DNA of 64,000 nt from Amycolatopsis umgeniensis. GTDB taxonomy: Bacteria > Actinomycetota > Actinomycetes > Mycobacteriales > Pseudonocardiaceae. The stretch is from the NCBI RefSeq assembly GCF_014205155.1, contig NZ_JACHMX010000001.1, forward strand, positions 1,426,001 through 1,490,000. Reading direction: 5' to 3'. Numbering within the stretch: the first letter of the stretch is position 1; each line of letters begins with the position of its first letter. The notes below the pieces were generated by a model, which ran no database searches, had not been told where the DNA came from, and worked only from the letters and a program-made list of their open reading frames with translations. Of this stretch, positions 4,471-60,285 are shown one piece after another. The translations under genes were made by a program, and so were the position numbers.

Positions 4471-6180
4471 ATGACGAAGGACAAGGGCACGCAACGTTTT
4501 CGCCTGCCCGCTTGGTTCCGGCTCGCCGTCGCCGCGGTCGTCGCGATCACCGTCGCCGTGATCGTCCTGGTCCAGGTCACCGAGAAGACTCCGGTCATGG
4601 CGTCGCCGCCCGCCACGCCGGTGTCGCTCGCCAGTCGCGGCCTCGAAGCGGGCAAGGCGGGCCTGCCGGGCCCCGGCGGCGATCCGGACCGGCGGACCCT
4701 CGTGCTCTACGACGACGGGCGGAAGAAGGACGGGTCCGTTTCCCCGCCCGACGAGGTCAAGACGGCCGAGGCGTACGCGATGTTCACCGCGAACCTCGTT
4801 TCCCGGGGTACCGCTTGGACGATGCAGCCCGCCGCCGACTACCGGCCACGGCAGGCGGACGAGTTCCAGGCCATCGTGTATCTCGGCTCGGTCTACGACG
4901 CGTCCTTGCCGAAGGCGTTCCTGAACGATGTCACCACGGCTCGCGTCCCCGTGGTCTGGATCGGTGCCAACATCTGGCAGTTGCGCGCCGTCCCCGACTG
5001 GCGCGTGGAGGGCTATCGCGACGACAACCCCACCACCGTCACCTACAAGGGCACTCCCCTGCGCCGCGATCCCCGTTCGGGCACCGGGGTCGCCGCGATC
5101 GACGTCCGTGATCGGACCAAGGTCCAGATCCTGGCCAAGGCGAGCGCCCCGGGCGGCACACCGTCGCCCTGGGCGGTCCATTCAGGACAGTTGACGTACG
5201 TGGCCGAGGTTCCTTACGCGTACGCGGGAGCGCAGGATCGCTACCTCGCCGCGGCCGACATCCTGCTGGGCGTCCTGTCGCCACAGGCACCGGACAGGCA
5301 CCGCGCACTGATCCGGCTCGAAGACGTCGGCCCGCGGACGAAGCCGGAGGAACTCCGCCGGGTCACGGACTTCCTCATCCGGCAGCGGATCCCGTTCTCC
5401 CTCGCGGTCTACCCGTACTACTCGGATCCGCGGGGCCGGGCCAACGACGGCGATCCGACCTCCGCGCGGCTGGTGGACTCGCCGGAACTGGTCGGCGTGC
5501 TCAAGGACGCCGTCCAGGCGGGCGCGACGCTGGTCATGCACGGCTACAGCCACCAGAGCGACAGCGGCCCGAACCCGTACGACGGGGTGAGCGCGAGCGA
5601 TTTCGAGTTCTACAAGTCCAGTCTCGACGGCGAAGGCGTCGTACGCATGGACGGGCCGATGCCCGAGGACTCGGCGCGATGGTTCGACGAGCGCATCGCG
5701 ACCGGCCTCGGGGAGTTCCGGCGAGTGGGGCTGCCGGAGCCGACGATGTTCGAGTTCCCGCACTACGGCGGTTCCGCCGTGGACTACCAGCAGACCACCG
5801 GGATCTTCCAGGCACGCTACGACCGCGGCAGCTACTACGCGGGCTTCTGCCCCGGCGGCCGCTGCGGCTCGACGGCCACGGCGACTTCGGAACAGGTGTA
5901 CGGCCAGTTCTTCCCGTACCCGGTGCGCGACGTCTACGGCGCGAACGTCGTCCCCGAGAACATCGGCAACGTGGCGCCGATCGCGTTCAACCAGCACGCC
6001 GCCCGCACCGCCGTCGACATGCTCGCCGACGCGCAGAGCGCGCTCGTCGTCCGGGACAACGTCGCCAGCTTCTTCTACCACCCGTTCCTCGGCGAGGACG
6101 GCCTGCGAGATCTGGTGAACTCGTTGCGAGCGCAGGGGTACCGCTTCGCCACACCCGCGGAGATCCTCGGCGACCAGTGA
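4471..6180 (+). CDS. Membrane-anchored DUF2334 polysaccharide deacetylase-like protein
   Basis: A 569-aa protein with a cytoplasmic basic N-terminus, one membrane anchor (about 15-36) and a large extracellular part. Residues about 75-270 look like a glutamine-amidotransferase-like fold often found before DUF2334. From about 280 the DUF2334 deacetylase-like domain shows ALIRLEDVGP, a start block with acidic metal-ligand candidates, then VMHGYSHQSD with the metal histidines. Such domains remodel or deacetylate surface polysaccharides. It starts 4 nt after wecB, so the two are one operon. Catalytic activity is inferred from the motif, not proven. Confidence 0.8.
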   Translation: MTKDKGTQRFRLPAWFRLAVAAVVAITVAVIVLVQVTEKTPVMASPPATPVSLASRGLEAGKAGLPGPGGDPDRRTLVLYDDGRKKDGSVSPPDEVKTAEAYAMFTANLVSRGTAWTMQPAADYRPRQADEFQAIVYLGSVYDASLPKAFLNDVTTARVPVVWIGANIWQLRAVPDWRVEGYRDDNPTTVTYKGTPLRRDPRSGTGVAAIDVRDRTKVQILAKASAPGGTPSPWAVHSGQLTYVAEVPYAYAGAQDRYLAAADILLGVLSPQAPDRHRALIRLEDVGPRTKPEELRRVTDFLIRQRIPFSLAVYPYYSDPRGRANDGDPTSARLVDSPELVGVLKDAVQAGATLVMHGYSHQSDSGPNPYDGVSASDFEFYKSSLDGEGVVRMDGPMPEDSARWFDERIATGLGEFRRVGLPEPTMFEFPHYGGSAVDYQQTTGIFQARYDRGSYYAGFCPGGRCGSTATATSEQVYGQFFPYPVRDVYGANVVPENIGNVAPIAFNQHAARTAVDMLADAQSALVVRDNVASFFYHPFLGEDGLRDLVNSLRAQGYRFATPAEILGDQ

Positions 6181-6200
6181 CATTCGAGTGCGGCATCCAG

Positions 6201-6263
6201 TCACGTGAGTTCCGTGTCTGATCACGCGAGTCACGTCTCCGATCACGTGAGTCACGCCTTCGG
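6201..6263. repeat. Three 21-bp tandem direct repeats
   Basis: Units begin at 6201, 6222 and 6243, each opening TCACGYGAG and followed by a TCACGTCTCYGA-like half; units 2 and 3 match best. Each unit carries internal ACGTGA/TCACGT-like half-palindromes. The array lies downstream of the DUF2334 gene, before the XRE-like regulator. The remaining roughly 165 bp to the next gene hold nothing else I can name. Confidence 0.7.
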
Positions 6264-6429
6264 CAGGGCATTCACTTCTGCCTCGGCGCCCCGCTGGCGC
6301 GGCCTCGCGGGTCTGCGGCTCGAGTTCGCCTGACGGGGCGGAAAGTCCGGTTCTCGACCTTAGACGGTTGCCGTCCGCCACCGGACTGCAACATGCTGTG
6401 CGCCGACCCGGTCTCGGTGGGGGTGCCCT

Positions 6430-7380
6430 ATGTACCAGGAAACCAAGGAGCCCAGCACAAGGCGAGCGGTACCGGACGCCGTCCGGTCCGGCCCGTTCCA
6501 TCGCGCGCTCTCGGAAGCGGTGGACCTTCGCGGCCTTTCCCTGTCCCGGATCCGGGCGCATCTGTCGGCACGCGGGGTCTCCGTGGCCGAATCGACCCTG
6601 AGCTACTGGCAGCGCGGGCTCCGGCATCCCTCGACGCCACGATCGCTCGAAATCGTCCGCGCGCTCGAAGCGGTGCTGGGCCTGCCCGCGGACAGCCTGG
6701 TCGTCCTGATCGGCCCGCAGCGGCGGCCCCCCGGCGACGGCGACCGCAGGCCCTCGCTACCGGAACTGCGGCAGAGCTGGGCCGAAACCTGCTCGCTGCT
6801 GGACGAACTGAGCGAGTCACCCGGCGCGGTGGGCAACGCGAAGCTCGACGTCGTGACCGTCGTCGACGTGCTGACCATGACCGCGCAAGGGCGGATCTCG
6901 GAGATCACCTCGACCATGGTGGTGCGGGCCCGGGAGCCCGGCGCGGACGGTTTCGTGGTGACCCATCAGGACGAACCCGGCACCGACATGGAGGCCACGA
7001 CGGTCTCCGCCACCGATGGCTGCCGAAGAGGCAGGGTGCGCCGAAGCGCGTTGTCGCCGGGGATGGTTTTCGAGCTCCTCTTCGATCGTGGCCTGGCCGA
7101 GGGCGAGACGTACACCTTCGCGTTCACCCTGCGCCTGGCGGCGTCGGTCCGTTCGACCTGCTTCCACCGGACGGTGCGGTCTCGTATGTCGGCGTACCTG
7201 CTCAGGATGCGTTTCGACGCCGACGCGATCCCCGCCCGGTGCGTCAAAACCGTGCGGGAGCGCGAAGAACTCGACCCCGTGATCAGCGAGCCGCTGCATC
7301 CGGGGCCGGGTGCGACGGTCAGCGCCTACTTCGAGGACCTCGGCGTCGGGATAGCGGGGATCGACCTCATCTGGGAGTGA
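6430..7380 (+). CDS. XRE-like DNA-binding protein with unknown C-terminal domain
   Basis: A 316-aa cytosolic protein. The N-terminal 90 residues resemble a lambda-repressor-like helix-turn-helix (LSLSRIRAHLSARGVSVAESTLSYWQRG) of the type found in actinobacterial regulators. The rest is a beta-rich domain of about 200 residues that I do not recognise. Start ATG 6430 has GGTGGGGGTG just upstream. The gene overlaps the convergent 3' end of the next gene by 14 nt. The target is unknown. Confidence 0.7.
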   Translation: MYQETKEPSTRRAVPDAVRSGPFHRALSEAVDLRGLSLSRIRAHLSARGVSVAESTLSYWQRGLRHPSTPRSLEIVRALEAVLGLPADSLVVLIGPQRRPPGDGDRRPSLPELRQSWAETCSLLDELSESPGAVGNAKLDVVTVVDVLTMTAQGRISEITSTMVVRAREPGADGFVVTHQDEPGTDMEATTVSATDGCRRGRVRRSALSPGMVFELLFDRGLAEGETYTFAFTLRLAASVRSTCFHRTVRSRMSAYLLRMRFDADAIPARCVKTVREREELDPVISEPLHPGPGATVSAYFEDLGVGIAGIDLIWE

Positions 7381-8149: not shown

Positions 8150-8836
8150 TCAGCCCTTCCGGATGTTGACGATGGTGTCGTTCCAGCGGAACTGGCCGTT
8201 GCTGCGGTACTGGTTGTAGTTCCAGGTCTGGTAGCGCTGGTAAGTCGGCCACGGGTCGCCGACCATGATCGACTGGTTCGCCGAGTCGTAGCCGTAGATG
8301 ACCTCGGCGTGGCCGCCGCCGGAGGTCCAGTAGATCCCCGTCAGGTTCAGGATCCCGGCGTCGACCTGGCTGACGACCGAGTTGAACCCGATGGGCCCGC
8401 CCGCGTCCTGCGCGGAGAAGCCGGTACCGCGGAAACCGCGCACGATCTCGGGGATCTGGGCCGCCTGGTTCGGGCAGTACCCGGCCGACGTCCCCTTGCC
8501 CGCCGCGCAGAACTGGGCCTGCGTGGCGGTGCCGCCCTGCGACCGCTCGATGCTCGAACCGTCCGCGGCCCAGCACCACTGGTTCTGCTGCTGCACCTGC
8601 TGGGTGTAGTTCAGCTGCTTGGAGGCGGCCGTCGCGGCGACCGTCATCGCGGTCCCCGCCACCGGCGCGATTTCCCGCACCTGGGTGTGGGTCTGGGTCT
8701 GGATCAGGCCGTTCGGCCGGTCTCCGCCGGCGCCGGGCTGCGCGAGGGCGGTGGCGGGCAACATGCCGAGCACCAACACGGCGGCTCCGGTCGCCAGTAC
8801 GGCGCGGGTCACCCGCCCGCTCGATAGGCTCTTCAC
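8150..8836 (-). CDS. Secreted papain-like cysteine protease
   Basis: The 228-aa precursor has a clear signal peptide ending ATALAQPGA. The mature part shows the papain-like set used in bacterial C39/C70-like proteases: catalytic Cys in QQNQWCWAADG, His in GGGHAEVIYGYD, then GDPWP near the end. A second Cys pair (FCAAG, GYCPN) may form a disulfide. I start at GTG 8836, preceded by AAAGGAGACA; an upstream in-frame start would bury the signal peptide. It is first gene of a two-gene operon with the anchored partner downstream. Substrate unknown. Confidence 0.83.
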   Translation of the reverse strand: MKSLSSGRVTRAVLATGAAVLVLGMLPATALAQPGAGGDRPNGLIQTQTHTQVREIAPVAGTAMTVAATAASKQLNYTQQVQQQNQWCWAADGSSIERSQGGTATQAQFCAAGKGTSAGYCPNQAAQIPEIVRGFRGTGFSAQDAGGPIGFNSVVSQVDAGILNLTGIYWTSGGGHAEVIYGYDSANQSIMVGDPWPTYQRYQTWNYNQYRSNGQFRWNDTIVNIRKG

Positions 8837-9057
8837 AGATGTCTCCTTTGACAGGGGGATGGGGAGGGCACGGCGACCGGACGGACTGCTCCGGCCGTGA
8901 TCACCGTGCGCCGCCCCGTCTCCGGGGACAACGCCCTTGCCTGGCATGGGAGAAACGCTGTGATCGTTCACAGGGGCCCACGGCGGGGAAGACCCTGTCG
9001 TCGCGCAAGATTCACTGCCCGTTCACAAAGGATGTGAATCCGCCACGGAGCCTCGGC
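8837..9057. promoter_or_regulatory. Protease promoter region with two inverted repeats
   Basis: These 221 bp lie upstream of the protease and downstream of the cyclase stop. Two perfect palindromes are present: CTGTGA-N4-TCACAG at 8958-8973 and TTCACA-N5-TGTGAA at 9022-9038. Both carry TGTGA/TCACA half-sites but neither has the Crp spacing, so the binding protein is unknown. Confidence 0.45.
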
Positions 9058-10620
9058 TCAAGACCTCGGTGTCGCGAGGGTGGTGGGCCGGCTACGGCCA
9101 CGCAAGGTGACGTCCTCCGTCGCCTTCCACTGTCCGGCCTCGGCCTCGTCCGCCGACTCGATCGCCGTCCACGAGGCGAGCAGCCGGGCTTCGACGTTCT
9201 TCGCCAGTTCGGTCAGCCGGGCGGCTTCGTTGACCGGGTCGCCGATCACCGTGTACTCGAACCGCCGCGGGTCGCCGACGTTCCCGGCGACCACCTCGCC
9301 CGTCGCCACGCCGATCCCGGCCGGGCATTCCGGCACCTCCGCGGCCAGCCTGCGCCCGATCGCGCGGGCCGCGGACAGCGCGAGGGTCGCGTGGTCGTCC
9401 AGCCGCACCGGTGCGCCGAAGATCGCGAGCGCGGCGTCCCCGACGAACTTGTTGACCAGCCCGTGGTTGCGGTCGACCTCGTCGACCACCACCGCGAAAA
9501 ACCGGTTGAGCAGGCCGACGACCTCCTCGGGCGGACGGCTCGCGGCCAGCGCCGTCGAGCCGATCAGATCGACGAACAACACCGAAACCGTCCGCACCGT
9601 GCCGCCGAGTTCCGCGGACGTGCGCATCGCTTCGATCGCGACGTCCTCGCCGACATGCCTGCCGAACAGGTCCCGCAAACGTTCGCGTTCGGCGAGACCG
9701 ACGGCCATCCCGTTGAAACCCGCCTGCAGCAGACCGAGCTCGGTACCGTCGTAGACCGGGATCTCCACGGCGAAGTCACCGGCCCGCACCCGGCCGAGCG
9801 CGTGCTGCACCGACCGGATCGGGTTCACCACGGCGCGGGCGGTGAACACCGTCACCAGCAGGCCGAAGCACAGCACCACCAGACCGAGCGCGACGACCGA
9901 GACGGCGAGCTTCGTGGTCGACACGTCGCCGCGCGCCCACGCCAGCACCGCCGTGACCACCAGCCCGGCCACCGGCACCCCGGTGCCGAGGCACCAGAAC
10001 AGCAGCATCCGCAGGTTGACCCCGCCACTCAGCGGCCGCGCGGGCGAGGTCCCCGCCAAGGCCAGTGCCGCGTACGGCCGGAGGATGAACTCCCCGGCCA
10101 GATAAGCGATCGCGCAGACGACCACGCCCGCGAACGCGACGACGAGCAGCTCGGTCAGCACGACCCGCGGCTGCACCAGCGCGGCCAGCAGGCCGAACAC
10201 CCCGGTCGCCACACCCCACAGCACGGCCTGGACCAAGGTCAGGCGCAACGGGACACGGAGACTGGCGGCGCGCTCCGCGTCGGTCGGCGTCCGGCCCTCG
10301 GCCGCCCAGCGCAACGTCCGCAGCGCGCCGCGAGTGCCCCACAGCGCGCCCACGACCACGGCGGAGACGACATAGACGGGGACGGCGATCGCGGTGACCC
10401 GCACGAGCTCGCTGGACATGCCGGGCGACGGCATGAGCAGCACCGCCAGCCCGACCACGACCAGCGCGCCGATGACGTTGGTCGCGATCAGCGTCCCGGT
10501 GAGCAGTCCCTGGACGCGGCGGCGCAATACGGCCGTGTCCTGATCGAGCGGACCGAGCAGCCAGGAGCCGAACGGCCCTTGCCCGCGGTCCCGAGCAGTG
10601 GAGTCCTTGACTGGTCGCAC
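9058..10620 (-). CDS. Membrane class III adenylate/guanylate cyclase with HAMP domain
   Basis: The 520-aa protein has six predicted membrane helices in the first 250 residues, a HAMP linker (about 263-320) and a class III cyclase domain. Metal-binding aspartates are present in VLFVDLIGST (about 345) and FVGDAALAIFG (about 393), followed by GIGVATGEVVAGNVG and YTVIGDPVNEAARL, so it looks catalytically competent. The layout matches mycobacterial Rv1318c/Rv3645-type cyclases that make cAMP. I chose GTG 10620 (MRPVKDS), preceded by GGCGGG; several upstream starts are possible. It is separated from the methyltransferase gene by 59 bp. Confidence 0.88.
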   Translation of the reverse strand: MRPVKDSTARDRGQGPFGSWLLGPLDQDTAVLRRRVQGLLTGTLIATNVIGALVVVGLAVLLMPSPGMSSELVRVTAIAVPVYVVSAVVVGALWGTRGALRTLRWAAEGRTPTDAERAASLRVPLRLTLVQAVLWGVATGVFGLLAALVQPRVVLTELLVVAFAGVVVCAIAYLAGEFILRPYAALALAGTSPARPLSGGVNLRMLLFWCLGTGVPVAGLVVTAVLAWARGDVSTTKLAVSVVALGLVVLCFGLLVTVFTARAVVNPIRSVQHALGRVRAGDFAVEIPVYDGTELGLLQAGFNGMAVGLAERERLRDLFGRHVGEDVAIEAMRTSAELGGTVRTVSVLFVDLIGSTALAASRPPEEVVGLLNRFFAVVVDEVDRNHGLVNKFVGDAALAIFGAPVRLDDHATLALSAARAIGRRLAAEVPECPAGIGVATGEVVAGNVGDPRRFEYTVIGDPVNEAARLTELAKNVEARLLASWTAIESADEAEAGQWKATEDVTLRGRSRPTTLATPRS

Positions 10621-10679
10621 CCGTACCCGCCGTTCGCCTGGTTTGAGTGAACGACTGTACACCGAAAACGCCGCCGGAG

Positions 10680-11483
10680 TCAGCGGACGGTGCCGGAGCC
10701 GATCAGCGTGGTGGCGTCGAGCTCGGTCACGCCCCCTTCGCGCAAGGAATCGAGGTACCGCTCGCGCACCTGCTCGACGACGCCGGGTTCCAAATCGGAG
10801 AGAAGGCCCCGGAAGCCGGACCCGATGATGACCAGCCACGCCACTTCGGGCGTCATGGTCAGCCGCAGTTCGTCGACCACGACGTCCACATCGGACAAAC
10901 CACGCGCGGAAAGCCATTCGGCGTAGGCCCCGGCCTGGTTGATCCGGTCGATCAGCCCGGGCTCACGCTCCGGCGGCGGCGCGGAATCGGTCACCTCGGC
11001 CATCGCACGACCGACGTGGCGGCCCGCGGTCACCATGGATCCGCCGCGCCAGATGGTGAACACGGCCCGCCCGCCGGGCCGGACCCGGCTGATCAGCCGT
11101 TCGGTGCCGTCCGTCATGTCGGGGAAGAAGAAGATGCCGAGCGCGGACAGCACCGCGTCGTAACCGCCGGTTTCCCATGCCGTCGCGTCGGCTTCGTGCG
11201 CGCGAAGCTGCGGCAAGTCCGCCGACAGGCGGCGCAACTCGCCGATCATCGGACCGGAGAGGTCGAGCGCGTCGACCACGCCGCCCGCGCCGACCGCCCG
11301 CGCCGCCGGGATCGCCGACGCCCCGGTGCCACAACAGGCGTCGAGGACGCGGTTTCCCGGACCGAGTCCGGCGGCCGCCACCGTGGCCGCGCCGATCGGC
11401 TCCCACAGATGGCGTCCGAGCGCGGCGAAATCGGCCGCGGCCTCGTCGAAGGCGCGCTGCGTGCCGATCTTGCGAGAAGACAT
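10680..11483 (-). CDS. Class I SAM-dependent methyltransferase
   Basis: A 267-aa soluble enzyme with a Methyltransf_11/25-type Rossmann core: VLDACCGTGASAIPAA (motif I, about 45-60), VDALDLSGPMI (motif II), AHEADAT and FTIWRGG. The C-terminal 100 residues form a cap. Substrate cannot be read from the sequence. The start ATG 11483 lacks a ribosome site, and a TATCGT -10-like box lies about six bases upstream, so the mRNA may be leaderless. It is divergent from the small secreted protein gene. Confidence 0.82.
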   Translation of the reverse strand: MSSRKIGTQRAFDEAAADFAALGRHLWEPIGAATVAAAGLGPGNRVLDACCGTGASAIPAARAVGAGGVVDALDLSGPMIGELRRLSADLPQLRAHEADATAWETGGYDAVLSALGIFFFPDMTDGTERLISRVRPGGRAVFTIWRGGSMVTAGRHVGRAMAEVTDSAPPPEREPGLIDRINQAGAYAEWLSARGLSDVDVVVDELRLTMTPEVAWLVIIGSGFRGLLSDLEPGVVEQVRERYLDSLREGGVTELDATTLIGSGTVR

Positions 11484-13560: not shown

Positions 13561-14292
13561 GTGGGCCGAAACCTTCAAACCCGCGAGCGGCTGAGGCCGG
13601 TCGATCTGGCGCGTGAGCACGGTCTGTCGACACAGGCCGTCCGCAACTACGAGGCGGACGGAATCCTGCCTGCCGCCGAACGCGGCCCGCACGGCTACCG
13701 CGCCTACACACCGTTGCACGCGCAGGCCTTGCGCGCGTTCCTCGCCCTGCTGCCGGGGCACGGCCACGCGACGGCGGCGTCGATCATGGAGGCGGTCAAC
13801 CGGGGCGCGATCGAGGAGGCGCTGCGGCTCGTCGACGAGAGTCACGCCCAGCTGCTCGACGACCGCCGCACCCTCCAGGCCGTCGCGGCCGCGCTCCGCG
13901 ATCTCGAGCCCGTGCCGCAGGAGCGGGGCGACCTGTTCGTCGGCCCGCTGTCGCGGAAACTCGGCGTCCGGCCCGCGACCCTGCGGAAATGGGAACACGC
14001 GGGCCTTCTCCGGCCAGAACGTGACCCGCGCACCGGTTACCGCGTCTACAGCGCGGCCGACGTGCGCGACGCCAAGCTGACCCATCAGCTCAGGCGGGGC
14101 GGCTATCTCCTGGAGCGGATCGCGCCGCTGATCGAGCAGGTCCGCTCGGCCGGAGGTGTCGTGCCGCTGGAGTCGACCCTGCACGACTGGCACACCCGGC
14201 TCGCGGCCAGGGGACGCGCCCTGCTCTCCGGTGCCGCCGCGCTGGACGCCTACCTCGACGAGGCGCGGCCAGCTCAGAGCGGCTCCAAATAG
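13561..14292 (+). CDS. Tandem-MerR transcriptional regulator (TioE-like), copy 2
   Basis: The 243-aa product has two MerR helix-turn-helix units: LAREHGLSTQAVRNYEADG near residue 20 and LSRKLGVRPATLRKWEHAG near 135, with HGYRAYT and TGYRVYS wings. It is a diverged paralogue of the protein at 12302-12994. GTG 13561 starts 3 nt after the DUF6194 stop, so it is translationally coupled. The 3' end overlaps the convergent gene at 14274 by 19 nt. The effector is unknown. Confidence 0.83.
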   Translation: MGRNLQTRERLRPVDLAREHGLSTQAVRNYEADGILPAAERGPHGYRAYTPLHAQALRAFLALLPGHGHATAASIMEAVNRGAIEEALRLVDESHAQLLDDRRTLQAVAAALRDLEPVPQERGDLFVGPLSRKLGVRPATLRKWEHAGLLRPERDPRTGYRVYSAADVRDAKLTHQLRRGGYLLERIAPLIEQVRSAGGVVPLESTLHDWHTRLAARGRALLSGAAALDAYLDEARPAQSGSK

Positions 14293-14684
14293 GTCCTCTC
14301 CGCCCAGTCGTCGTCACCGTCGTCGTCGGGGAGATCCCGGTGGCGGGTGGGCGCCGGGGTGGCCAGTTCGCGTAATTCGGCGACGGCGGCGTCGACGTCC
14401 ATCTCGGCGAGCTCGCCGACCTGCTGTTCCAACCCGGCCCAGGCGTCGGCGGTGAGCCGCTGCCGCTGTTCGGCGGGCACCGCGTCGATCACTCGCCACA
14501 GCTCTCGCGCGTCCTGGACGAATTCGTCCAGGACCGGGCCGTGCGCCAGCAGTTCGTGCGGCTGACGCCGTCCGGCGAGCACCTCCCCGGCGAAGTCGCC
14601 GGCGGCACCACCGGTCGCCGCCAGCAGCCGCATCATCGTCCGCCGGACCTGTTCGCCCCGCTCCGCTTCGAAAGGATCGTCCAT
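14274..14684 (-). CDS. Small acidic protein, second gene of an ESX-like pair
   Basis: A 136-aa soluble, strongly acidic protein (ending HRDLPDDDGDDDWAERTYLEPL) with a helical N-terminal two-thirds. I know no family. Its ATG lies 2 nt after the stop of the WXG-like gene upstream, so the two are translated together. That makes a partner, chaperone or co-secreted protein of the ESX-like product the most likely role (inference). Confidence 0.7.
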   Translation of the reverse strand: MDDPFEAERGEQVRRTMMRLLAATGGAAGDFAGEVLAGRRQPHELLAHGPVLDEFVQDARELWRVIDAVPAEQRQRLTADAWAGLEQQVGELAEMDVDAAVAELRELATPAPTRHRDLPDDDGDDDWAERTYLEPL

Positions 14685-14686
14685 CG

Positions 14687-15916
14687 TCACAGCAGCACTC
14701 GCTTGTCCTTGGCGGGGCATTTCGCGTCGCGGTGCTCGTAACCGCCCGGCCACTGCGGCGCTTCGCCCATGGCCCTGGTGGCTTCGAGGAGATCGTCGAT
14801 CGCCACTCCCCGCGCGAACTCGTGGGCCAGCCCGAGCAGGAGGCTGATCTCCGTCTGCAGGGCGCTGATGGTCTCGCTGAAGGACAGCACCAGGTGGATC
14901 AGCCCGAGGATCTCGCCGTCCTTGACGAACTTGACGAGATCGCCGCCTCGGCCGATCTCGGCGAGGACCTCGCTGATGACGTCCGCCAGCCGGAGCCCGC
15001 GCCGCACCGCGAGGCTCTTGCCCTTGGTGAGGATCAGCAGCGCGATGTCGATGGCCGAGCTGACGAAATGGCGGATGCCCTGCATCAGGTGGTAGGCGAC
15101 CCGTGCGAGCGCCTGGATGACCTGGCTCGCGCCGCTGAAGTAGCGCGCCAGTCCGACGACGCTGTCGTGATAGGCCGCCAGCCAGTTCTTGGCCTGGTCG
15201 GCCGCCTCCCCGGTCCACGGTTCCTGGATCCCGAACCGGCCCTGGTTGATGTTGAGCGCGATGTTCTCGAAGCCCGCCCCGGCGTCGGCGTAGAGCACGG
15301 CCTGCCGCTGCAGCAGGCTCCAATCGCCGACCAGCGCGTCGGCGATCATGGTGATGAAGTCCTTGTCGGCGCCGCTCAGTGTCTTGATCAGCTCGGCGAC
15401 GTCGCCCAGGGACCCGCCGAGACCCAGCAGTTCCTCGGCCTTCTTCTCCGCCTGCACCGGCCACCAGGCCGGATTGTCGATCTGCGCCTGATCGGGCCCG
15501 TTGTAGCCGACGGGGACCGCGTCGCGGAACGACGCCGCGCCCGCCGGGTCGCGCACTTCGTCCACCGGGACCCGCACGGCGTCCGGCTCCGGGTTGAGCC
15601 GGTCCAGCAGTTCCGCCGCCGTCCGGTCGACCACGCCGTACCAATGCGCCACGCAACGAAGCTCGTGCCCGACTCCGCTCGCGAGGTCGGCCGCGTACCG
15701 CGACTGGCTCATCGCCATCCGCTGCCACTCGTCGAGCTTCGGCCAGGCGTTGGCCAGGAACCCCTCCCCCCGTTCGGTGTCGAAGCCGCCCCCACCGCCG
15801 AGCACGCGGTCGAAACACTCGCGGAAGTCGTCGGCACCCGCCCCGGCCCGCACCACCAGATCACCGAGCCCCCGAACCGCCGCGGGGTCCACCGAGAACC
15901 CTTGTCCTGCTCGCAT
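14687..15916 (-). CDS. ESX-like (WXG-domain) secreted-protein candidate, 409 aa
   Basis: The product is largely helical. It begins with a roughly 100-residue helical bundle of the type seen at the N-terminus of T7SS-associated proteins, and has a second WXG-like hairpin with EPWTGEAADQAKNWLAAYHDS near residue 230. A hydrophobic stretch (about 280-310) could be membrane-associated. There is no Sec signal peptide and no toxin domain I recognise at the C-terminus. ATG 15916 is preceded by GAGGGG. It is first of a two-gene operon. Confidence 0.66.
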   Translation of the reverse strand: MRAGQGFSVDPAAVRGLGDLVVRAGAGADDFRECFDRVLGGGGGFDTERGEGFLANAWPKLDEWQRMAMSQSRYAADLASGVGHELRCVAHWYGVVDRTAAELLDRLNPEPDAVRVPVDEVRDPAGAASFRDAVPVGYNGPDQAQIDNPAWWPVQAEKKAEELLGLGGSLGDVAELIKTLSGADKDFITMIADALVGDWSLLQRQAVLYADAGAGFENIALNINQGRFGIQEPWTGEAADQAKNWLAAYHDSVVGLARYFSGASQVIQALARVAYHLMQGIRHFVSSAIDIALLILTKGKSLAVRRGLRLADVISEVLAEIGRGGDLVKFVKDGEILGLIHLVLSFSETISALQTEISLLLGLAHEFARGVAIDDLLEATRAMGEAPQWPGGYEHRDAKCPAKDKRVLL

Positions 15917-53803: not shown

Positions 53804-54190
53804 TCACTCGCGCCAGCGGTTGTTGAGGAAGGCGTCGTCCTCGTCGTCCACCGGTGCCGGACGACGAGGAGCGCGCCGGGGCGAGTCCCGCCGCTCCGGG
53901 GTGAACGGAGCCGCCGGCGCGTCGAAGGCGGGAGCCTCGTCGAACGCCGACGTGTTCCCCGGCTCGGCGTGTGACCGGTCGGTGCTCCAGCCGGACTTCG
54001 TCTTGCGCTCCCCCAGCTCCCGCCGATGCTCGACGTAGCGCTGGGCGGTCATGACCTGCTTGGTCATGAACTCCTGCGAGCTGGCCTTGATCTCGTCGGC
54101 CTTCTGGTCCCGCAGCACCCGGCGCTCCGCCTGCTCGCGGACGAGACCGTCCAGGGTCGCCTTCATACCGGCGGTGTCGTCGACGCTCAT
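53804..54190 (-). CDS. Small ESX-operon protein, basic/acidic, 128 aa
   Basis: The last gene of the five-gene FAAL-ACP-ESX operon. The N-terminal 75 residues form a coiled-coil-like helical stretch (LVREQAERRVLRDQKADEIK); the rest is disordered and rich in Pro/Arg/Asp, ending DDAFLNNRWRE. No signal peptide. I recognise no family. AGGGGAGA precedes ATG 54190. The YbaB-like helical start suggests an EspL/EspH-type accessory, but that is only a guess. Confidence 0.7.
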   Translation of the reverse strand: MSVDDTAGMKATLDGLVREQAERRVLRDQKADEIKASSQEFMTKQVMTAQRYVEHRRELGERKTKSGWSTDRSHAEPGNTSAFDEAPAFDAPAAPFTPERRDSPRRAPRRPAPVDDEDDAFLNNRWRE

Positions 54191-54211
54191 CTGCTTCTCC
54201 CCTGCCTCGGA

Positions 54212-57193
54212 CTACCGCCTGCGCGTGACCGGCTGATCCTCATCGTCCAGCAACGAACCGGTGATCCGGCCGGTGGGTTCGTTGATCTGGTCGAACACCT
54301 CGCCCTCGATCCGGTACGCCCGGTTGCTCCGTTCCTGGTCACCGCCGCCGCCCTGGCCACCGCCGCCCATGCCGCCCATCGGTGGCATCGCGCCACCGCC
54401 GAACGACTGACCGGCAGGCCCGCCCATCGGGGCGGCCGGGGCGGCCGAAGCCAAGGGTTGCGGCTGGTGCGCCCCGCCGCCGGTGTGCACGCCTTCGGTC
54501 AACGACGACGGTTGCCCACTCACGGGGGTCGCGGATTCGAACGGAGCCGTGATCCCCGCGCCACCGCCGCCGGCGTGGCCGCCGCCTCCGCCTCCACCGT
54601 GGCTGCCGCCGCCTCCCTCGAGGTCACCGGCGCGGATGCCGTCGGGAACGGTTCCGCCGCCACCGTGGTGCGGGGTGACCGGCATCCGGTGCTCGGGCTG
54701 CGTCGTCCCGGTGAGGGGCTTGGCCTCATGCGAGGGCTTGTGCGTGTCCGAGGGATCCTTGTCCTCGCCGAGGGTGTACGTGGTCGGTTTGCCGGTGCCG
54801 TCGTCGACGGTGACGACCGTCGGCCCGGACGGGCCGTCGGGACGTTCGGCGGTGATCTTCACATCGCCGTCCTGGATGTGGATCTTGCCGTCCGCCCCGG
54901 GGCGGTGCACGTCGTCCTTCTTGCCGTCGCCGTCGGGAGCGTCACCCAGCTTGGACTCGTCGCCGGTCCAGTCGAGTTTGAAGTCCTTGGCCGGTCCGGA
55001 ACCGTCGCCGACCTTGATCTCCATCTCGCCGTCTTTGTCCGGCTCGGTCATCTCGAAGGTCTTGTCACCCTGCTTGACCTTGAGGGTCTCGCGTTCGCCG
55101 TCCTCGGCCTTGTCCTTGTCGTCCTTGTCCTCGGTCAGCTTGTCGCCGTCCGCGCCCGGCATGTCTTCGCCGAGCTTGTCCAGCGCTTCGGAGGCCTTCT
55201 TCTTGGCGTCCTCGGCGGCCTTGTCGGCGGCTTCCTTGGAGTCGCCGTCCTTGGAGTCGGTGTCGCCCAGGCCGCCGCCGGGGGCGTCGCCCATCTTGTC
55301 GAGGGCTTCGGACGCCTGCTTCTTCGCGTCCTCCGCGGCCTTTTCCGCCGCTGCCTTGGCTTCGGAGGCCGCGTCCGTGCTGCCGCCGCCGGGACCGCCA
55401 CCGGTTCCGCCGCCGCCAGGGCCGGAGCCGCCGGGACCGGAGCCGGAACCGCCGAGTTCGCCGCCGCCGGGGCCGTCGCCCAACTTGCTCAGCGCTTCCG
55501 ACGCCTGCTTCTTCGCGTTCTCGGCAGCGGCCGCGGCCTGCTTCTTGGCCTCTTCGGCCGCGGCTTTCTGCTCGTCGCCGGAGGACGGCGGCGGAGCAGA
55601 GCCCGAAGGCGACGTCTGGTCCTTGCTCGGGTCGGGACCACCGCCACCGGGGCCACCACCGCCCGGGCCGGAGCCACCGGCGCCACTGTCGGGGATCTTC
55701 ACATCCGGGACCGGCGGGGGCTTCTGATCGCCCGACGGACCGGTGCCGGAGCCCGAGCCGCCCGGACCGCCGCCGGGGCCACCACCGGAACCGCCCTCGG
55801 GGATCTTCACATCCGGAACCGGCGGAGGCTTCTGGCCCGATGAGCCGGTGCCATCGCCGGAGCCGCCACCAGGACCGCCGCCGGGGCCACCGGTACCCGA
55901 GCCGCCGCCGTTCCCGCCGCCCTGGCCGCCGCCTTGACCGCCGCCGTTCCCGCCACCTTGACCGCCGGTGAAGTCCGGTCCGCCATTGCCCGGGCCGCCG
56001 GGGCCGCCCGCGCCGCCCTTGCCGTCCGCGCCCGCGCCTTCGAACTCGTTCTTGACCTTGCCCATGACCTTGTCGAGCTCGTCGTAGGCCTGGTTGACGA
56101 AGTCCTTGGTCTCCTTGCAGTTCTTCTCGAAGCCCAGGTAGATGGCGGTCCACATCTCCGGGATGAACTGCTTCTGGATCCACTGCTTGGCGAGGTTCTG
56201 GCCCGCCTTCTTGAACTCGTCGTCGTCGCAGCAGCCGTCGTTGTTCAGCTGCTGAACGAGGTTGGAGCCGAAGTTGGCGTCCATCCAGCCCGCGATCGCG
56301 CCGAGGTCTTCCTTGCCGCTCTTCTCACCGGCGGCGATGGCGACGACCTTCTGCGCCATCGCGAAGTCGGCCTTGCCGACGATCTCCTTGTACCCCTTGA
56401 CGACCTCGTCGGCCTTCTCCTTGCAGAGCTTGAACACCGTGGTGGTGGTGTGCAGCGTCGCTTCGCTCGCGGTGTTCAGCGTCTGGGAGAGTTTCTTGGC
56501 CTTGGGAAGGATCTTCTCCTTGTAGTTCTCGGACGAAGCGTCCGCGGCCTTCCCGGTCCAGGTCCCGTACAGGGTGTTCAGCTGGGACCCTGTGTCGTCC
56601 ATGGCCTTCTCGACGGTCTTCGAGCCCGTCTTGAAGTGCGCGGCGTCGTCGACGAAGTTCTTGAAGTTGATGCCGCGCTGCTCGTCGAACGGCTTCTTGA
56701 TGTCCTTCTCGAAGTCGAGCGCGCGGCTGGTCCCCCGGCAGTCCTCCGGGAGCTTCGCCAGCAGCGAACCGAAGGTCTGGAAGACCTTGAGCGCGGGTAC
56801 GGCGGCGTCGAAGATCTCGTCCGAAGTCTTGGTGCCGCCGCCTTCCGGCGTGGGTTCCTTTGTGCCGTCGAGCTTCTTGTCGCCGTCGTTGACGGCCTTC
56901 GTCTCTTCCTTCTGGGTGAAGCTGGCCTGATCGCCGGCTGCCTTCGCGCCGCCGTAGATCTTCTTGGTGTCGCTGTCATACGGAAGGAACGGAAGGGCGT
57001 TGAACGTCTGCGCGTACTTTTCGGCTTCTTTGCGCTTCTGCTTGATCTCTTCCGGCTCCTCGACCCCGCCCCACGGGGGAGGTGCCGGATGCGTCTTGAT
57101 CCACGAGCCGATGAGCGCGGTCTTGTTACCGGGCGGGACGCTCGGGTCATCGAGGACGGCTTTGACCTCGGTCCAGGTGAGTTCGTCGGCCAC
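54212..57193 (-). CDS. Large ESX-like protein with Gly/Pro-rich repeats, 993 aa
   Basis: Residues about 1-400 are helical and contain a WXG-like hairpin (LYGTWTGKAADASSENY near 230) plus cysteines (DGCCDDDE, NCKETK). Residues about 410-560 are Gly/Pro-rich with PPPVPDVKIP twice. Three copies of an Ala/Lys helical repeat (NAKKQASEALSKLGD, DAKKQASEALDKMGD, DAKKKASEALDKLGE) follow, then an acidic beta-rich segment and a Gly-rich tail ending in a RIEGEVFDQINEPTGR motif. GTG 57193 overlaps the upstream stop (TAGTG). A secreted or surface role through an ESX system is inferred. Confidence 0.72.
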   Translation of the reverse strand: MADELTWTEVKAVLDDPSVPPGNKTALIGSWIKTHPAPPPWGGVEEPEEIKQKRKEAEKYAQTFNALPFLPYDSDTKKIYGGAKAAGDQASFTQKEETKAVNDGDKKLDGTKEPTPEGGGTKTSDEIFDAAVPALKVFQTFGSLLAKLPEDCRGTSRALDFEKDIKKPFDEQRGINFKNFVDDAAHFKTGSKTVEKAMDDTGSQLNTLYGTWTGKAADASSENYKEKILPKAKKLSQTLNTASEATLHTTTTVFKLCKEKADEVVKGYKEIVGKADFAMAQKVVAIAAGEKSGKEDLGAIAGWMDANFGSNLVQQLNNDGCCDDDEFKKAGQNLAKQWIQKQFIPEMWTAIYLGFEKNCKETKDFVNQAYDELDKVMGKVKNEFEGAGADGKGGAGGPGGPGNGGPDFTGGQGGGNGGGQGGGQGGGNGGGSGTGGPGGGPGGGSGDGTGSSGQKPPPVPDVKIPEGGSGGGPGGGPGGSGSGTGPSGDQKPPPVPDVKIPDSGAGGSGPGGGGPGGGGPDPSKDQTSPSGSAPPPSSGDEQKAAAEEAKKQAAAAAENAKKQASEALSKLGDGPGGGELGGSGSGPGGSGPGGGGTGGGPGGGSTDAASEAKAAAEKAAEDAKKQASEALDKMGDAPGGGLGDTDSKDGDSKEAADKAAEDAKKKASEALDKLGEDMPGADGDKLTEDKDDKDKAEDGERETLKVKQGDKTFEMTEPDKDGEMEIKVGDGSGPAKDFKLDWTGDESKLGDAPDGDGKKDDVHRPGADGKIHIQDGDVKITAERPDGPSGPTVVTVDDGTGKPTTYTLGEDKDPSDTHKPSHEAKPLTGTTQPEHRMPVTPHHGGGGTVPDGIRAGDLEGGGGSHGGGGGGGHAGGGGAGITAPFESATPVSGQPSSLTEGVHTGGGAHQPQPLASAAPAAPMGGPAGQSFGGGAMPPMGGMGGGGQGGGGDQERSNRAYRIEGEVFDQINEPTGRITGSLLDDEDQPVTRRR

Positions 57194-57504
57194 TAGCGCA
57201 TCCCCGTCTTGGTGATCTTGTTCTTCGTCTCGTCCTCGTTGGTGCCGTAGGTGGTGCCCGCGGTGCCGAGGTTCGTGCCGAACGAGCCGAGAGTCTTGCT
57301 GTATCCCTGGACCGAGGCCCACAGCGCGGCCACACCGTCGGTGTACTTCTTCGAGTGGTCACCGTGTGCCTGACCGAAGCCGGCCGCGTTCACGGGCGTG
57401 CTCGACAGATCGGGATTGTCTTCGAGCAACTGCTCCGTCAGCTTTCCGATGTTCTTCGACGCCGATGAAAGCGCATCGGTCGCCGCGGTGAAGCCCCCGC
57501 TCAT
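57193..57504 (-). CDS. EspC-like ESX secretion-associated protein
   Basis: A 103-aa protein, helical, with the features of small T7SS substrates: no Sec signal, a helical hairpin (residues 1-30 and 55-95), an ALWASVQGY turn and the terminal secretion motif Y-x3-E in TTYGTNEDE. The pattern resembles the EspC family (PF10824). It starts 5 nt after the ACP stop and its own stop overlaps the next start, so it is translated with both. Confidence 0.68.
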   Translation of the reverse strand: MSGGFTAATDALSSASKNIGKLTEQLLEDNPDLSSTPVNAAGFGQAHGDHSKKYTDGVAALWASVQGYSKTLGSFGTNLGTAGTTYGTNEDETKNKITKTGMR

Positions 57505-57509
57505 TCTGC

Positions 57510-57773
57510 TCAGCGCCTTTCGTCGGATCCGTCGGCCTTACCGTCGAGTGCCTCGGTGAGCACTTCCGCCACCGACCCGATGTCGGTGAACCGGTCCAGC
57601 TGGTCCAGATCAATCCTCACGTCGTGGTAGATCTCCAGCGCCGACAGGAGTTTTATCCGTCCTTTGGAGTCGATACCCAGCTCTTCGAGCGGTGCGTCGA
57701 ACTCGATTTCGGCGGGATCAAGCCGAAAAGTCTCGCTGACGACCTTCACGACCTCCGCGCGGTGATCACCCAC
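57510..57773 (-). CDS. Acyl carrier protein
   Basis: An 87-aa ACP with the phosphopantetheine attachment Ser in LEELGIDSKGRIKLLSALE. The usual DSL is DSK here. Helix II and the hydrophobic faces are otherwise normal. GTG 57773 overlaps the end of the fatty acyl-AMP ligase gene by 8 nt, so the two are made together. The ligase is expected to load it with a fatty acid. Confidence 0.85.
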   Translation of the reverse strand: MGDHRAEVVKVVSETFRLDPAEIEFDAPLEELGIDSKGRIKLLSALEIYHDVRIDLDQLDRFTDIGSVAEVLTEALDGKADGSDERR

Positions 57774-59415
57774 GGGGCCGACTATAACGCGCCTTCGCGG
57801 CCGCTCGCGCAACCTTGCCACTGGAAGTGCGCGGAAGGTCACCGGAGGGAACCAGAAGGACCGATCGCAACGTCAGATCATGTTCACGTGACACCGCACG
57901 CAATACCACTCTGGTGACTTCTTTGACATCGGCTTCGGCGTTCTTTGCCCATTCGGCTACCAACATCGCCCCTTCACCCATTTCGTCCGACACGCCGAAA
58001 GCGGCGACCCGGTCGCGGCGGACGGCCGGATGCGCTTCCCCCGCCACCGCCTCGATGTCCTGCGGATGGAAGTTACGGCCGTCGATGACGATGAGATCCT
58101 TGAGCCTGCCGGTGATGTAGAGGTCCCCTCCATGGAACAGGCCGAGGTCACCGGTGCGCAACCAGCCGCCGTCGCCCTCGAGTTCGCCGCCGAACGCGGC
58201 GGCGTCCCCGCGGCCCCAGTAACCGGCCGCGACGTTCGGGCCGCGGATCCAGATCTCGCCTGCCAGTCCGTCGGGCTGCGCCATCCCGTCACGGACGATC
58301 CGCACCCGCTGGCCGAGCGGGCGGCCGACCGAGACCAGTTCCTGACCGTCCGGCACCTCGATCGCCCGGCCCTGCGCGAGGGCTTCCCTGTCGAACACCG
58401 CACCTCGCGGCCCCTCCGCGCCCGCGCTCGCCACGTACACGGTGGCCTCGGCAAGGCCGTACGACGGGCGGTGGGCTTCGGGCCGGAATCCGCGCGGGCC
58501 GAAGACCTCCCGGAAGCGCGCGACCGTGCGCGGCTGGATCGGCTCGGCGCCGTTGAGCGCGACCCGGACGTCGGAGAGGTCGAGGTCGTCCCCGGCCTCC
58601 CCGGCGGCGTCCGCGGCCAGGTCGAACGCGAAGTTCGGCGCGGCGGTGAACACGGCCGGGTGATCCGCCAGTTGACGCAGCCACCTCGCGGGCCGCTGCA
58701 CGAACTCCGCGGGCGACATGAAAACCGACCGCGCTCCGGCGAAGACCGGCAGGCACAGGAGCTGGATGAGGCCCATGTCGTGGAAGAACGGGATCCAGCC
58801 CGCGCAGGTCGTCCCCTCGTCGACCGCGTAGGCCTGACTCGCCTGCCAGCAGGCCGCGGTGACCGCCCGGTGCGGGATCACGGCACCGGCCGGCTCCCGC
58901 GTCGACCCGGACGTGTACTGCAGGTACGCGGGACTCTCGGGGGCCACCGGGAGGGGGTCGGCACCCGGCCCGGAAAGCTCGTCGACCACAAGCAGATGTT
59001 CGGGCTCGCCCGCTTCCCGCGTTTTCGCGGCGGCGGCAGACGAGGTCAGCCAGACCCGGGCACCGCAGTCCTCCAGCACACCGGCGAGCCTGCCGCGCTG
59101 GGACGGACTGCCCGGCGTCATCAACGGCACGGCCACCAGGCCGGCGGCGAGCGCTCCGAAGAACGCCAGGGGGTAGTTCAGGTCCTGGCCGGTCAGCACG
59201 GCGACGCGATCGCCCGGACGCGTGACCCGGCCCAGCGCGCCCGCGACTTCCCGGACCCGGGAGGCGAACCCTGTCCAGGTGACCGTGTTGTCCACACCGG
59301 CGCTGTGGTCCTGATGTGTGAACAGCGGGCGCGGGTCGGTCTCGCGAGCGAACAACCGCTCGACGATCGAGGTGCGCAGCACCTGCTCCGGAACTTCCAC
59401 CGGCGACGCGGTCAT
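57766..59415 (-). CDS. Fatty acyl-AMP ligase (FAAL, FadD-like)
   Basis: The 549-aa ANL enzyme shows FAAL hallmarks: P-loop YTSGSTREPAGAVIPHR, IPFFHDMGLIQ, FMSPAEFVQRPARWLRQL, ALNGAEPIQPRTVARF, YGLAEATVYVA, then TGDLGLFHGGDLYITGRLKD and IVIDGRNFHPQDIE. Catalytic Lys is in SSGKVARAA near the end. It adenylates a fatty acid and passes it to an ACP rather than CoA. ATG 59415 was used. It is first gene of the ESX-linked operon. Confidence 0.9.
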   Translation of the reverse strand: MTASPVEVPEQVLRTSIVERLFARETDPRPLFTHQDHSAGVDNTVTWTGFASRVREVAGALGRVTRPGDRVAVLTGQDLNYPLAFFGALAAGLVAVPLMTPGSPSQRGRLAGVLEDCGARVWLTSSAAAAKTREAGEPEHLLVVDELSGPGADPLPVAPESPAYLQYTSGSTREPAGAVIPHRAVTAACWQASQAYAVDEGTTCAGWIPFFHDMGLIQLLCLPVFAGARSVFMSPAEFVQRPARWLRQLADHPAVFTAAPNFAFDLAADAAGEAGDDLDLSDVRVALNGAEPIQPRTVARFREVFGPRGFRPEAHRPSYGLAEATVYVASAGAEGPRGAVFDREALAQGRAIEVPDGQELVSVGRPLGQRVRIVRDGMAQPDGLAGEIWIRGPNVAAGYWGRGDAAAFGGELEGDGGWLRTGDLGLFHGGDLYITGRLKDLIVIDGRNFHPQDIEAVAGEAHPAVRRDRVAAFGVSDEMGEGAMLVAEWAKNAEADVKEVTRVVLRAVSREHDLTLRSVLLVPSGDLPRTSSGKVARAAAKARYSRPRG

Positions 59416-59491: not shown

Positions 59492-60112
59492 TCAGCTCAC
59501 CGTCACGGTCGCGAGCGCGGGGTTCTGGCCGGGGTCGATGCCGCACGGCAGATCGAACGTGCCGAGGTCCGTCGGCGTGCCGTCCGCCCGCCTCGGCGTG
59601 ACCTTCCCGGTGAAGGTGCCGCCCACGGCGAAGGCGACCGAACCGGGCTTCTTCACGGTGAGCCCGGGGATCGGGCCGGTGATGGCGAGCGCCAGCGGGC
59701 CGTCCTGCGGTACGGCGGTGACCGGGAAACCCAGGCCGTTGAGCGTGACACCGAGTTCGGTGCCGTTGTAGTCGACGTCGACGTTCGCCGACGCGGTTCC
59801 TTCGATGGTCGCCGCGCCGATCAGGTTCAGCGCGGTGACGCTGTCCCCTTCGAGGGAAACGGCCACGGAAAAGCCGGTGACGTCGATCGGGGATCCGGCG
59901 GTCACCGTTTCGGGGAAGGTCGCGGTCACTTTCGCGGCGACCTGCTGTGCGCCGATGAGCGGCATTTCGCAGGTGAAGGTCAGATCCTTGACCACCGGCC
60001 CGGCGAGCGGAGCGGCGGAAACGGCACCGGACGGCAGCGTGACCGCCGCTCCGGCGATGACCAGCGCGGTCGCGATCCGGACAACGGGTCTCAAAGAAGA
60101 AAAGCGCGCCAT
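59492..60112 (-). CDS. Secreted DUF6801-like protein
   Basis: The 206-aa exported protein has a signal peptide (ending AVSAAPL) and an Ig-like beta domain: FTCEMPLIGAQQVAAKVTAT, TVTAGSPIDVTGFSVAV and a final PCGIDPGQNPALATVTVS with the partner Cys. The first and last cysteines could form a disulfide. I link it to DUF6801 from memory of the TCxxPLIG pattern. GGAGGA precedes ATG 60112. Function unknown. Confidence 0.75.
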   Translation of the reverse strand: MARFSSLRPVVRIATALVIAGAAVTLPSGAVSAAPLAGPVVKDLTFTCEMPLIGAQQVAAKVTATFPETVTAGSPIDVTGFSVAVSLEGDSVTALNLIGAATIEGTASANVDVDYNGTELGVTLNGLGFPVTAVPQDGPLALAITGPIPGLTVKKPGSVAFAVGGTFTGKVTPRRADGTPTDLGTFDLPCGIDPGQNPALATVTVS

Positions 60113-60285
60113 GGAAATCCTCCGACGGGGAATTCGGGAAAGGAATGACGAAATCCGGGAAAACGTTACGACCAACCGAACCGGTCAACAACACACCAAC
60201 TCGGTGGTATCGATTCAGCCGGATTGTTCTTGTCATTCGAGGACGATTCCAGGGCAGCGTTCTTGCCAGATCGGTAATCGTCGGT

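Follow-up and report, generated by a model that had tools for sequence, protein, structure and literature searches.

The DNA considered here is a stretch of 64,000 nucleotides from Amycolatopsis umgeniensis (contig NZ_JACHMX010000001.1, positions 1,426,001 to 1,490,000), referred to as the window and numbered from its first letter; the source genome is 9.2 Mb in a single contig. Five genes on the minus strand of the window place an acyl-activating enzyme and a carrier protein next to proteins that resemble substrates of type VII (ESX) secretion. The first encodes a fatty acyl-AMP ligase (FAAL) of 549 aa, related to FadD32, FadD23 and FadD28 (57766..59415; ATG at 59415 to TGA at 57766), and the second an acyl carrier protein (ACP) of 87 aa with its carrier Ser36 in the motif GIDSK (57510..57773; GTG at 57773 to TGA at 57510). 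These are followed by an EspC-like, or PE-like, small partner of 103 aa with a YxxxD/E motif at Y86-E90 (57193..57504; ATG at 57504 to TAG at 57193), a 993-aa PPE/WXG-like protein that is the candidate acyl acceptor (54212..57193; GTG at 57193), and a 128-aa accessory protein whose acidic C-terminal tail is conserved (53804..54190). All five reading frames are open and form one tight array: FAAL and ACP overlap by 8 nt, 5 nt separate the ACP stop from the EspC-like start, the GTG of the 993-aa gene overlaps the TAG of the EspC-like gene (TAGTG), and the 128-aa gene follows after a further 21 nt. The sequence-only reading had listed these packed genes and their overlaps, which are borne out to the base. 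Its phrase "fused by translation" stands here only in the sense of overlapping genes; a true FAAL-ACP fusion occurs in a relative (locus L076, one species), where the two form one reading frame. Genes were called with a small purpose-written caller, whose start positions could be off by codons. For each cassette gene, pairwise comparison with five relatives gives a dN/dS below 1 (0.00 to 0.61; FAAL, 0.08 to 0.19).

The FAAL matches the Pfam family AMP-binding (8.1e-59), and its best structural match is chain 5d6j, named Acyl-CoA synthase (4.5e-113); the solved FAALs FadD32 (1.4e-102), FadD23 (3.6e-93) and FadD28 (8.9e-76) are also matched. Its active-site motifs, catalytic Lys534 (PRTSSGK) included, are invariant in 18 of 18 aligned ESX-linked FAALs, and the stretch where the insertion typical of FAALs, absent from acyl-CoA ligases, is expected aligns without loss to the FadD32-like chain, in an alignment that includes no acyl-CoA ligase. 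The closest named relative is the FAAL of Amycolatopsis azurea (91% identity). The ACP belongs to the Pfam family PP-binding (1.3e-10), and its carrier serine is invariant in all 30 aligned ACPs. The FAAL of this cassette probably loads its own ACP, a reading supported by the natural fusion in L076.

Among the 61 called window genes, the second longest, behind the 993-aa gene, encodes 747 residues, and a ketosynthase (KS) profile matches none of the 61, while only one of the 107 AMP-binding places of the genome, that of the FAAL, falls inside the window; for these reasons the earlier statement that neither a polyketide synthase (PKS) nor a non-ribosomal peptide synthetase (NRPS) lies nearby holds over the full 64 kb. 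A role of the FAAL as loader for a neighbouring PKS or NRPS is rejected on the same window content and on the FAAL tree, in which 24 ESX-linked and 19 FAAL-PKS sequences fall on opposite sides of a weakly supported branch (55/100).

The window EspC-like protein itself has no significant Pfam match, and within its family T7SS_ESX_EspC is matched at E <= 0.1 by 24 of the 42 members (best 7e-08). A YxxxD/E motif near the C-terminus is a type VII secretion signal; it occupies one alignment place in 42/42 EspC-like partners, and it lies within the last 45 residues of 32/32 partners linked to acyl genes, 48/63 unlinked partners and 13% of shuffled tails. The 993-aa protein consists of a helical N-terminal part (residues 1 to about 390), a Gly-rich linker and a C-terminal part. 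Its W212-x-G214, between helices 177-211 and 215-266, forms a WXG hairpin of which both named residues are invariant in 55 aligned sequences, and its Pfam WXG100 score of 26.9 bits is just below the 27.3-bit cut-off. No window protein matches the Pfam PPE family up to E 1, which leaves the 993-aa protein outside PPE proper, and the PPE likeness of its N-terminus comes from a model only, helical proteins scoring high through their arrangement. The BAR-domain matches that top the structure list for the same region are read as this common long-helix arrangement and set aside. The 128-aa protein has no Pfam match. Starts of the EspC-like and PPE-like genes are coupled, with a gap of -4 or -1 in 81 of 100 pairs. 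From these signals and from the locus described below, the EspC-like and 993-aa proteins would constitute a co-made type VII export pair. Elsewhere in the window (14274-15892, minus strand) lie adjacent genes for proteins of 136 and 401 aa, neither with a Pfam match; the latter matches the PPE-like profile weakly (5.9e-06), and the window may thus hold a further type VII-like protein.

EccC-type machinery does not adjoin the window cassette, and the ESX-4 locus of the same genome adjoins a paralogous set. This second set (L046) has the order FAAL, ACP, EspC-like protein, 805-aa protein and 178-aa protein and is located between glmM and glmS. Upstream of it, past rplM-rpsI, are esxT and esxU and then the ESX-4 machine, with EccC (FtsK/SpoIIIE), EccD, a mycosin-like S8 protease, EccB and EccE recognised by Pfam. 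Pseudonocardiales are known from published work to have ESX-4 clusters (PMC4791881). Since the paralogous set occupies the ESX-4 locus, the window set is most plausibly an ESX-4 substrate operon that was copied to a new place. Three further observations concern such loci. A short P450-like gene stands beside the FAAL at L046 (9133-10065) and likewise at L047, L048, L049, L086, L090 and L155; the proteins have 253-339 aa, Pfam p450 matches only the C-terminal part in the three checked (two scores barely above the cut-off and one below), and they could act on the acyl-ACP. At L050 (G026:C40), an Acyl_transf_3 gene (10228-11406; 6e-33) is divergent from a set of EspC-like, 1036-aa and 144-aa genes, which has no FAAL or ACP yet belongs to the FAAL-linked clade discussed below. 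At L103, the interval from glmM to the EspC-like gene contains a 413-aa gene (5976-7217) whose product looks, by eye, like the C-terminal part of a PPE-like protein with the N-terminus missing.

The arrangement is widely conserved in the genus. A search of 80 Amycolatopsis genomes with the FAAL (E <= 1e-140) returned 135 places, and a place was counted as linked when an EspC-like match lay on the same strand at most 1 kb downstream. At least 119 of the 135 are linked, including all 63 window-type FAALs (>=65% identity), for which the FAAL to EspC-like gap of 249-280 nt leaves room for just an ACP. At least 72 of the 80 genomes carry a linked set and at least 47 carry two; the 15 weakest of the EspC-like matches listed were excluded, none of which adjoins an unlinked FAAL by eye, and the linked counts are lower bounds. 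Eight genomes have no set: five are without a FAAL match at the threshold, and three have FAALs only beside PKS-like genes (L097-L099). Named carriers are A. azurea, A. vastitatis, A. kentuckyensis and A. rifamycinica. Among the best 80 named FAAL loci, eight have EspC-like genes, all in Amycolatopsis, and 52 of the other 72 adjoin a ketosynthase-bearing gene.

Different species have few flanking genes in common. When a few flanking genes per locus were compared at 50% identity, the window shared flanks with both L072 and L152, and a single gene with L083; sharing was also found for L077-L153, L080-L081 and L082-L083, while L073-L076, L078, L079, L049 and L050 have no flanks in common. As the order is kept while so few flanks are shared, the cassette genes have stayed together at several genomic addresses. 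The DUF6801 gene directly upstream of the FAAL (59492-60175, minus strand) is labelled otherwise at L072 alone among the mapped FAAL loci, and for this reason is not regarded as a cassette member. A passenger FAAL-ACP pair, placed at the locus by chance or hitch-hiking, could be imagined from the eight genomes without a set and from most other genera examined, which lack any acyl module. Such an origin is highly improbable and is disfavoured by the repetition of the order in at least 119 places, twice in at least 47 genomes and at several addresses, and by the tie of two different acyl modules, described next, to one PPE-like clade. The conserved FAAL-ACP-EspC-like synteny that the sequence-only reading proposed to look for is strongly evident in Amycolatopsis and one more genus, and the random neighbourhood that it named as refuting was not observed. 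Its type VII link emerges stronger than first claimed, given the paralogue at the ESX-4 locus and a second acyl module beside like proteins in eight genera. We are highly confident of the association itself, and of the dedication of the acyl genes to the exported-type genes.

The second module became visible in the glmM-glmS interval, which was examined in 56 genomes from 45 genera (the sample comprised 80 genomes and 46 genera). Four loci contain FAAL-ACP, ten contain an ACP, a KS and a chain length factor (CLF), and 42 contain neither; because 16 of the 56 loci were chosen via a match to the window EspC-like protein, 14/56 is not an unbiased rate. FAAL-ACP is found upstream of the trio of EspC-like, PPE-like and 128-aa genes in three Amycolatopsis and one genome of a second genus, and ACP-KS-CLF downstream of it in ten genomes of eight other genera, where the 128-like gene and the ACP gene have 4 nt in common in 6/7 measured cases. 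A PPE-like gene is present in 50 of the 56 loci and accompanies all 14 modules; none of the six PPE-free loci has one. The catalytic residues (Cys, both His and Lys) are present in 10/10 KS and absent from 10/10 CLF partners. In the KS tree, 11 ESX-linked sequences form one branch (94/99) relative to 13 from free-standing ACP-KS-CLF sets. Two KR (ketoreductase) genes and one FabA-like gene among the free-standing kin are confirmed by Pfam, so that small-molecule biosynthesis looks like the source of the module.

Small-molecule pathways are the usual destination of both FAAL-ACP pairs and KS-CLF-ACP sets. The acyl-ACP might accordingly make a small lipid or lipopeptide-like metabolite, which the PE/PPE-like pair would export, bind or deliver. 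The KR genes of the free-standing kin, accompanied in one of two scanned by FabA-like genes, speak for such a product, as do the short P450-like genes beside the FAAL at seven ESX-4-site loci. However, the window set has kept neither a PKS or NRPS nor any enzyme for release or tailoring, and the maps of the ten ESX-linked KS sets, judged by gene size and place (L106 ends at a contig end), show no KR- or dehydratase-like gene. We consider a metabolite product unlikely, while leaving it a real minority share of our belief.

The two kinds of ACP differ in how strictly they keep to ESX genes. A profile search of 150 genomes of the order gave 29 ACP matches; all 18 of the strongest have an EspC-like match no more than 3.5 kb away and none of the 11 weaker has one, proximity being judged by eye and several of these genomes having supplied profile rows. 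In 13 chosen genomes, extra ACP matches distant from EspC-like genes occur in G032, G066, G131, G058 and G082; those examined in G032, G066 and G131, together with G129 and G216 from the 150-genome search, are ACP-KS sets. In the genomes sampled, the FAAL-linked ACP is ESX-specific and the KS-linked kind is not. The idea of a shared, ESX-specific origin for both was dropped, since the outgroup row L236 groups with the KS-linked ACPs. Among the distant sets, that of L241 (G032:C55:178000-196000, about 8815-11299) lies inside a ribosomal-protein operon, flanked by an L15-like gene and secY (Pfam for both neighbours) and at a distance of about 30 kb from glmM. At L243, L244 and L245 (G066, G131) there are larger clusters that combine an ACP with multiple KS and CLF genes and are likely type II polyketide clusters.

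The acyl modules follow one subfamily of PPE-like proteins. A tree was built from 94 N-termini (rows below 450 aa excluded), in which a row is linked when its three upstream neighbours on the same strand include a FAAL or its two downstream neighbours include an ACP; 33 rows are linked (24 to FAAL and 9 to KS) and 61 are not. L088_8 precedes a FAAL set and is counted as unlinked, though the adjacency rule alone would label it KS, and L106, one of the ten ACP-KS-CLF loci, is absent from the nine KS rows, only the C-terminal part of its PPE-like protein having been called. All 33 linked proteins fall into one clade of 44 rows (100/99), and none of the 50 rows outside it is linked by the adjacency rule. 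Many ESX-4 loci hold two trios, and linkage there means that the EspC-like gene comes after FAAL-ACP or the 128-like gene before the ACP. First-trio rows that run into a same-strand FAAL are not counted (L084_10 and L085_6, in the clade; L088_8 and L089_8, outside it), and eight further unlinked rows have a module elsewhere in their locus. FAAL-linked rows form two branches within the tree and KS-linked rows one, which suggests that the source of the acyl chain changed while the PPE-like subfamily stayed.

This distribution also bears on the possibility that the acyl-ACP acylates a part of the ESX-4 machine, or another envelope protein or glycan, with the pair merely sharing the operon. The paralogous set at the ESX-4 locus would fit such a target, and protein O-mycoloylation in Corynebacterium, of the same order, offers a precedent; there, this modification is on porins, which do not need type VII secretion (PMC12632848). 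By contrast, linkage follows one PPE-like clade, and the window-type cassette is whole yet stands apart from the ESX-4 machine. An envelope target is accordingly regarded as quite unlikely.

In the preferred interpretation, the five genes would work together as a single cassette that belongs to the ESX-4 branch of type VII secretion. The FAAL would adenylate a free fatty acid and load the chain onto the phosphopantetheine of the partner ACP, which would in turn donate it to the co-made export pair, most likely to the 993-aa protein, prior to export, with the 128-aa protein as an accessory of the pair. The pair would leave via ESX-4, and the exported protein would be lipid-anchored or membrane-active. 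Transfer could be catalysed by a cassette protein, proceed by direct thioester exchange, or depend on an enzyme encoded elsewhere. The loading step follows from the enzyme families and the export step from signals and locus; the transfer step joins the two, and we infer, with confidence evenly balanced between acceptance and rejection, that the acyl-ACP supplies its chain to the exported pair. Of the transferases considered, MbtK-type Acetyltransf_8 proteins have four genomic places, none near either cassette.

Several observations weigh against this interpretation. No acyltransferase is encoded within the five-gene cassette, the rest of the window not having been searched gene by gene, and a genome-wide search for an HlyC-type transferase found none, its control match likewise not being recovered. 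Of the 56 ESX-4 loci, 42 are without an acyl module and 36 of these have a PPE-like gene, so the trio as such does not depend on the module. Related ACP-KS-CLF sets are also located away from ESX genes in G032, G066, G131 and G129, which means that this module is not exclusive to ESX. Eleven unlinked proteins lie inside the 44-row linked clade, and the ACP tree does not demonstrate a single ESX-specific origin for FAAL-linked and KS-linked ACPs.

Within the PPE-like N-terminus, 44 positions are kept in at least 31 of the 33 linked proteins. Two of them, C321 (codon at 56231..56233, minus strand) and K336, are each lost in 7 of the 11 unlinked clade members, more often than any other of the 44, while C359 is lost in none. 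C321 lies in a loop between helices 312-317 and 324-378. Genome G014 lacks the ACP-KS-CLF module of its kin and has no such ACP genome-wide at E <= 1e-6; there C321 is replaced by F, the sole substitution among the 44 positions (one other is a gap). A C321-C359 disulphide, which may still form in other members, is not a sufficient explanation for C321, because C359 persists in seven unlinked proteins without C321. The EspC-like protein is rejected as the carrier of a common Cys or Ser acceptor, as no such position is kept across both FAAL- and KS-linked sets. The case for C321 has its own exceptions: position 321 is Lys in two linked proteins (L090, L155), the Cys is shifted to the next residue in two others (L160, L161), a Cys is retained in five unlinked proteins (L050, L104, L127, L134, L156) and present in 37% of 19 rows outside the clade, and two of the seven losses (L084, L085) are in first trios directly preceding a FAAL. 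Since the counts are uncorrected for relatedness, they nominate a residue and prove nothing. A specific version of the mechanism, in which the cassette ACP would pass its chain by thioester exchange to C321, the 128-aa protein would dock and the S-acylated pair would be exported by ESX-4, is thus put forward as a doubtful proposal.

The 128-aa protein shows a comparable pattern, with His55 kept in 28/30 linked and 1/9 unlinked sets. Together with the ACP, which is the sole part common to both modules whatever enzyme supplies the chain, residues of this kind that go with linkage would suit a mechanism without any transfer, in which the acyl-ACP would act as a scaffold or sensor: by binding either the 993-aa or the 128-aa protein, it would gate export according to fatty-acid status. 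Sensing the general pool, however, would require no dedicated loading enzyme, and we find gating improbable.

If the acylation of the pair is correct, some type VII substrates are lipidated, with acyl supply wired into ESX-4 operons in two forms, FAAL-ACP and ACP-KS-CLF. This would give a direct, testable idea of the role of ESX-4 substrates at the envelope and a case of fatty-acid or polyketide genes recruited into protein export. In the open-licence papers searched, no link of a FAAL, ACP or ketosynthase to ESX-4 or type VII substrates was found. ESX-4 is the ancestral ESX system, present in many actinomycetes without a mycomembrane, and its role in them was unknown to the authors in 2016 (PMC4791881).

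The closest parallels in protein export are the RTX toxins, acylated by HlyC/CyaC with acyl-ACP as lipid donor, and class IV CdiA, acylated by the related enzyme CdiC and with its acceptor lysine replaced where cdiC is absent; in these cases too, the gene for the secreted protein travels with an acylation gene (PMC8510554). Those systems encode the transferase, whereas the present cassette encodes the ACP and its loading enzyme and no transferase, and secretion system and host are different. Compared with the mycobacterial ESX pairs (PE25-PPE41, EspB), the window proteins lack a PPE or PE family match, the 993-aa protein adds a Gly-rich linker and an extra C-terminal region, and a dedicated acyl-ACP supply is present. 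FadD32-Pks13 and MbtM-MbtL are FAAL-carrier pairs of lipid and siderophore pathways. The cassette resembles them in pairing a carrier protein with a FAAL of the FadD32/FadD23/FadD28 kind, but no PKS or NRPS follows and FAAL-PKS sequences separate in the tree, if with weak support. The second module, found in eight other genera with a KS that has its catalytic residues and a CLF that lacks them, resembles the minimal set of type II PKS (KS, CLF and ACP), but is stripped to ACP-KS-CLF and sited in the ESX-4 substrate operon.

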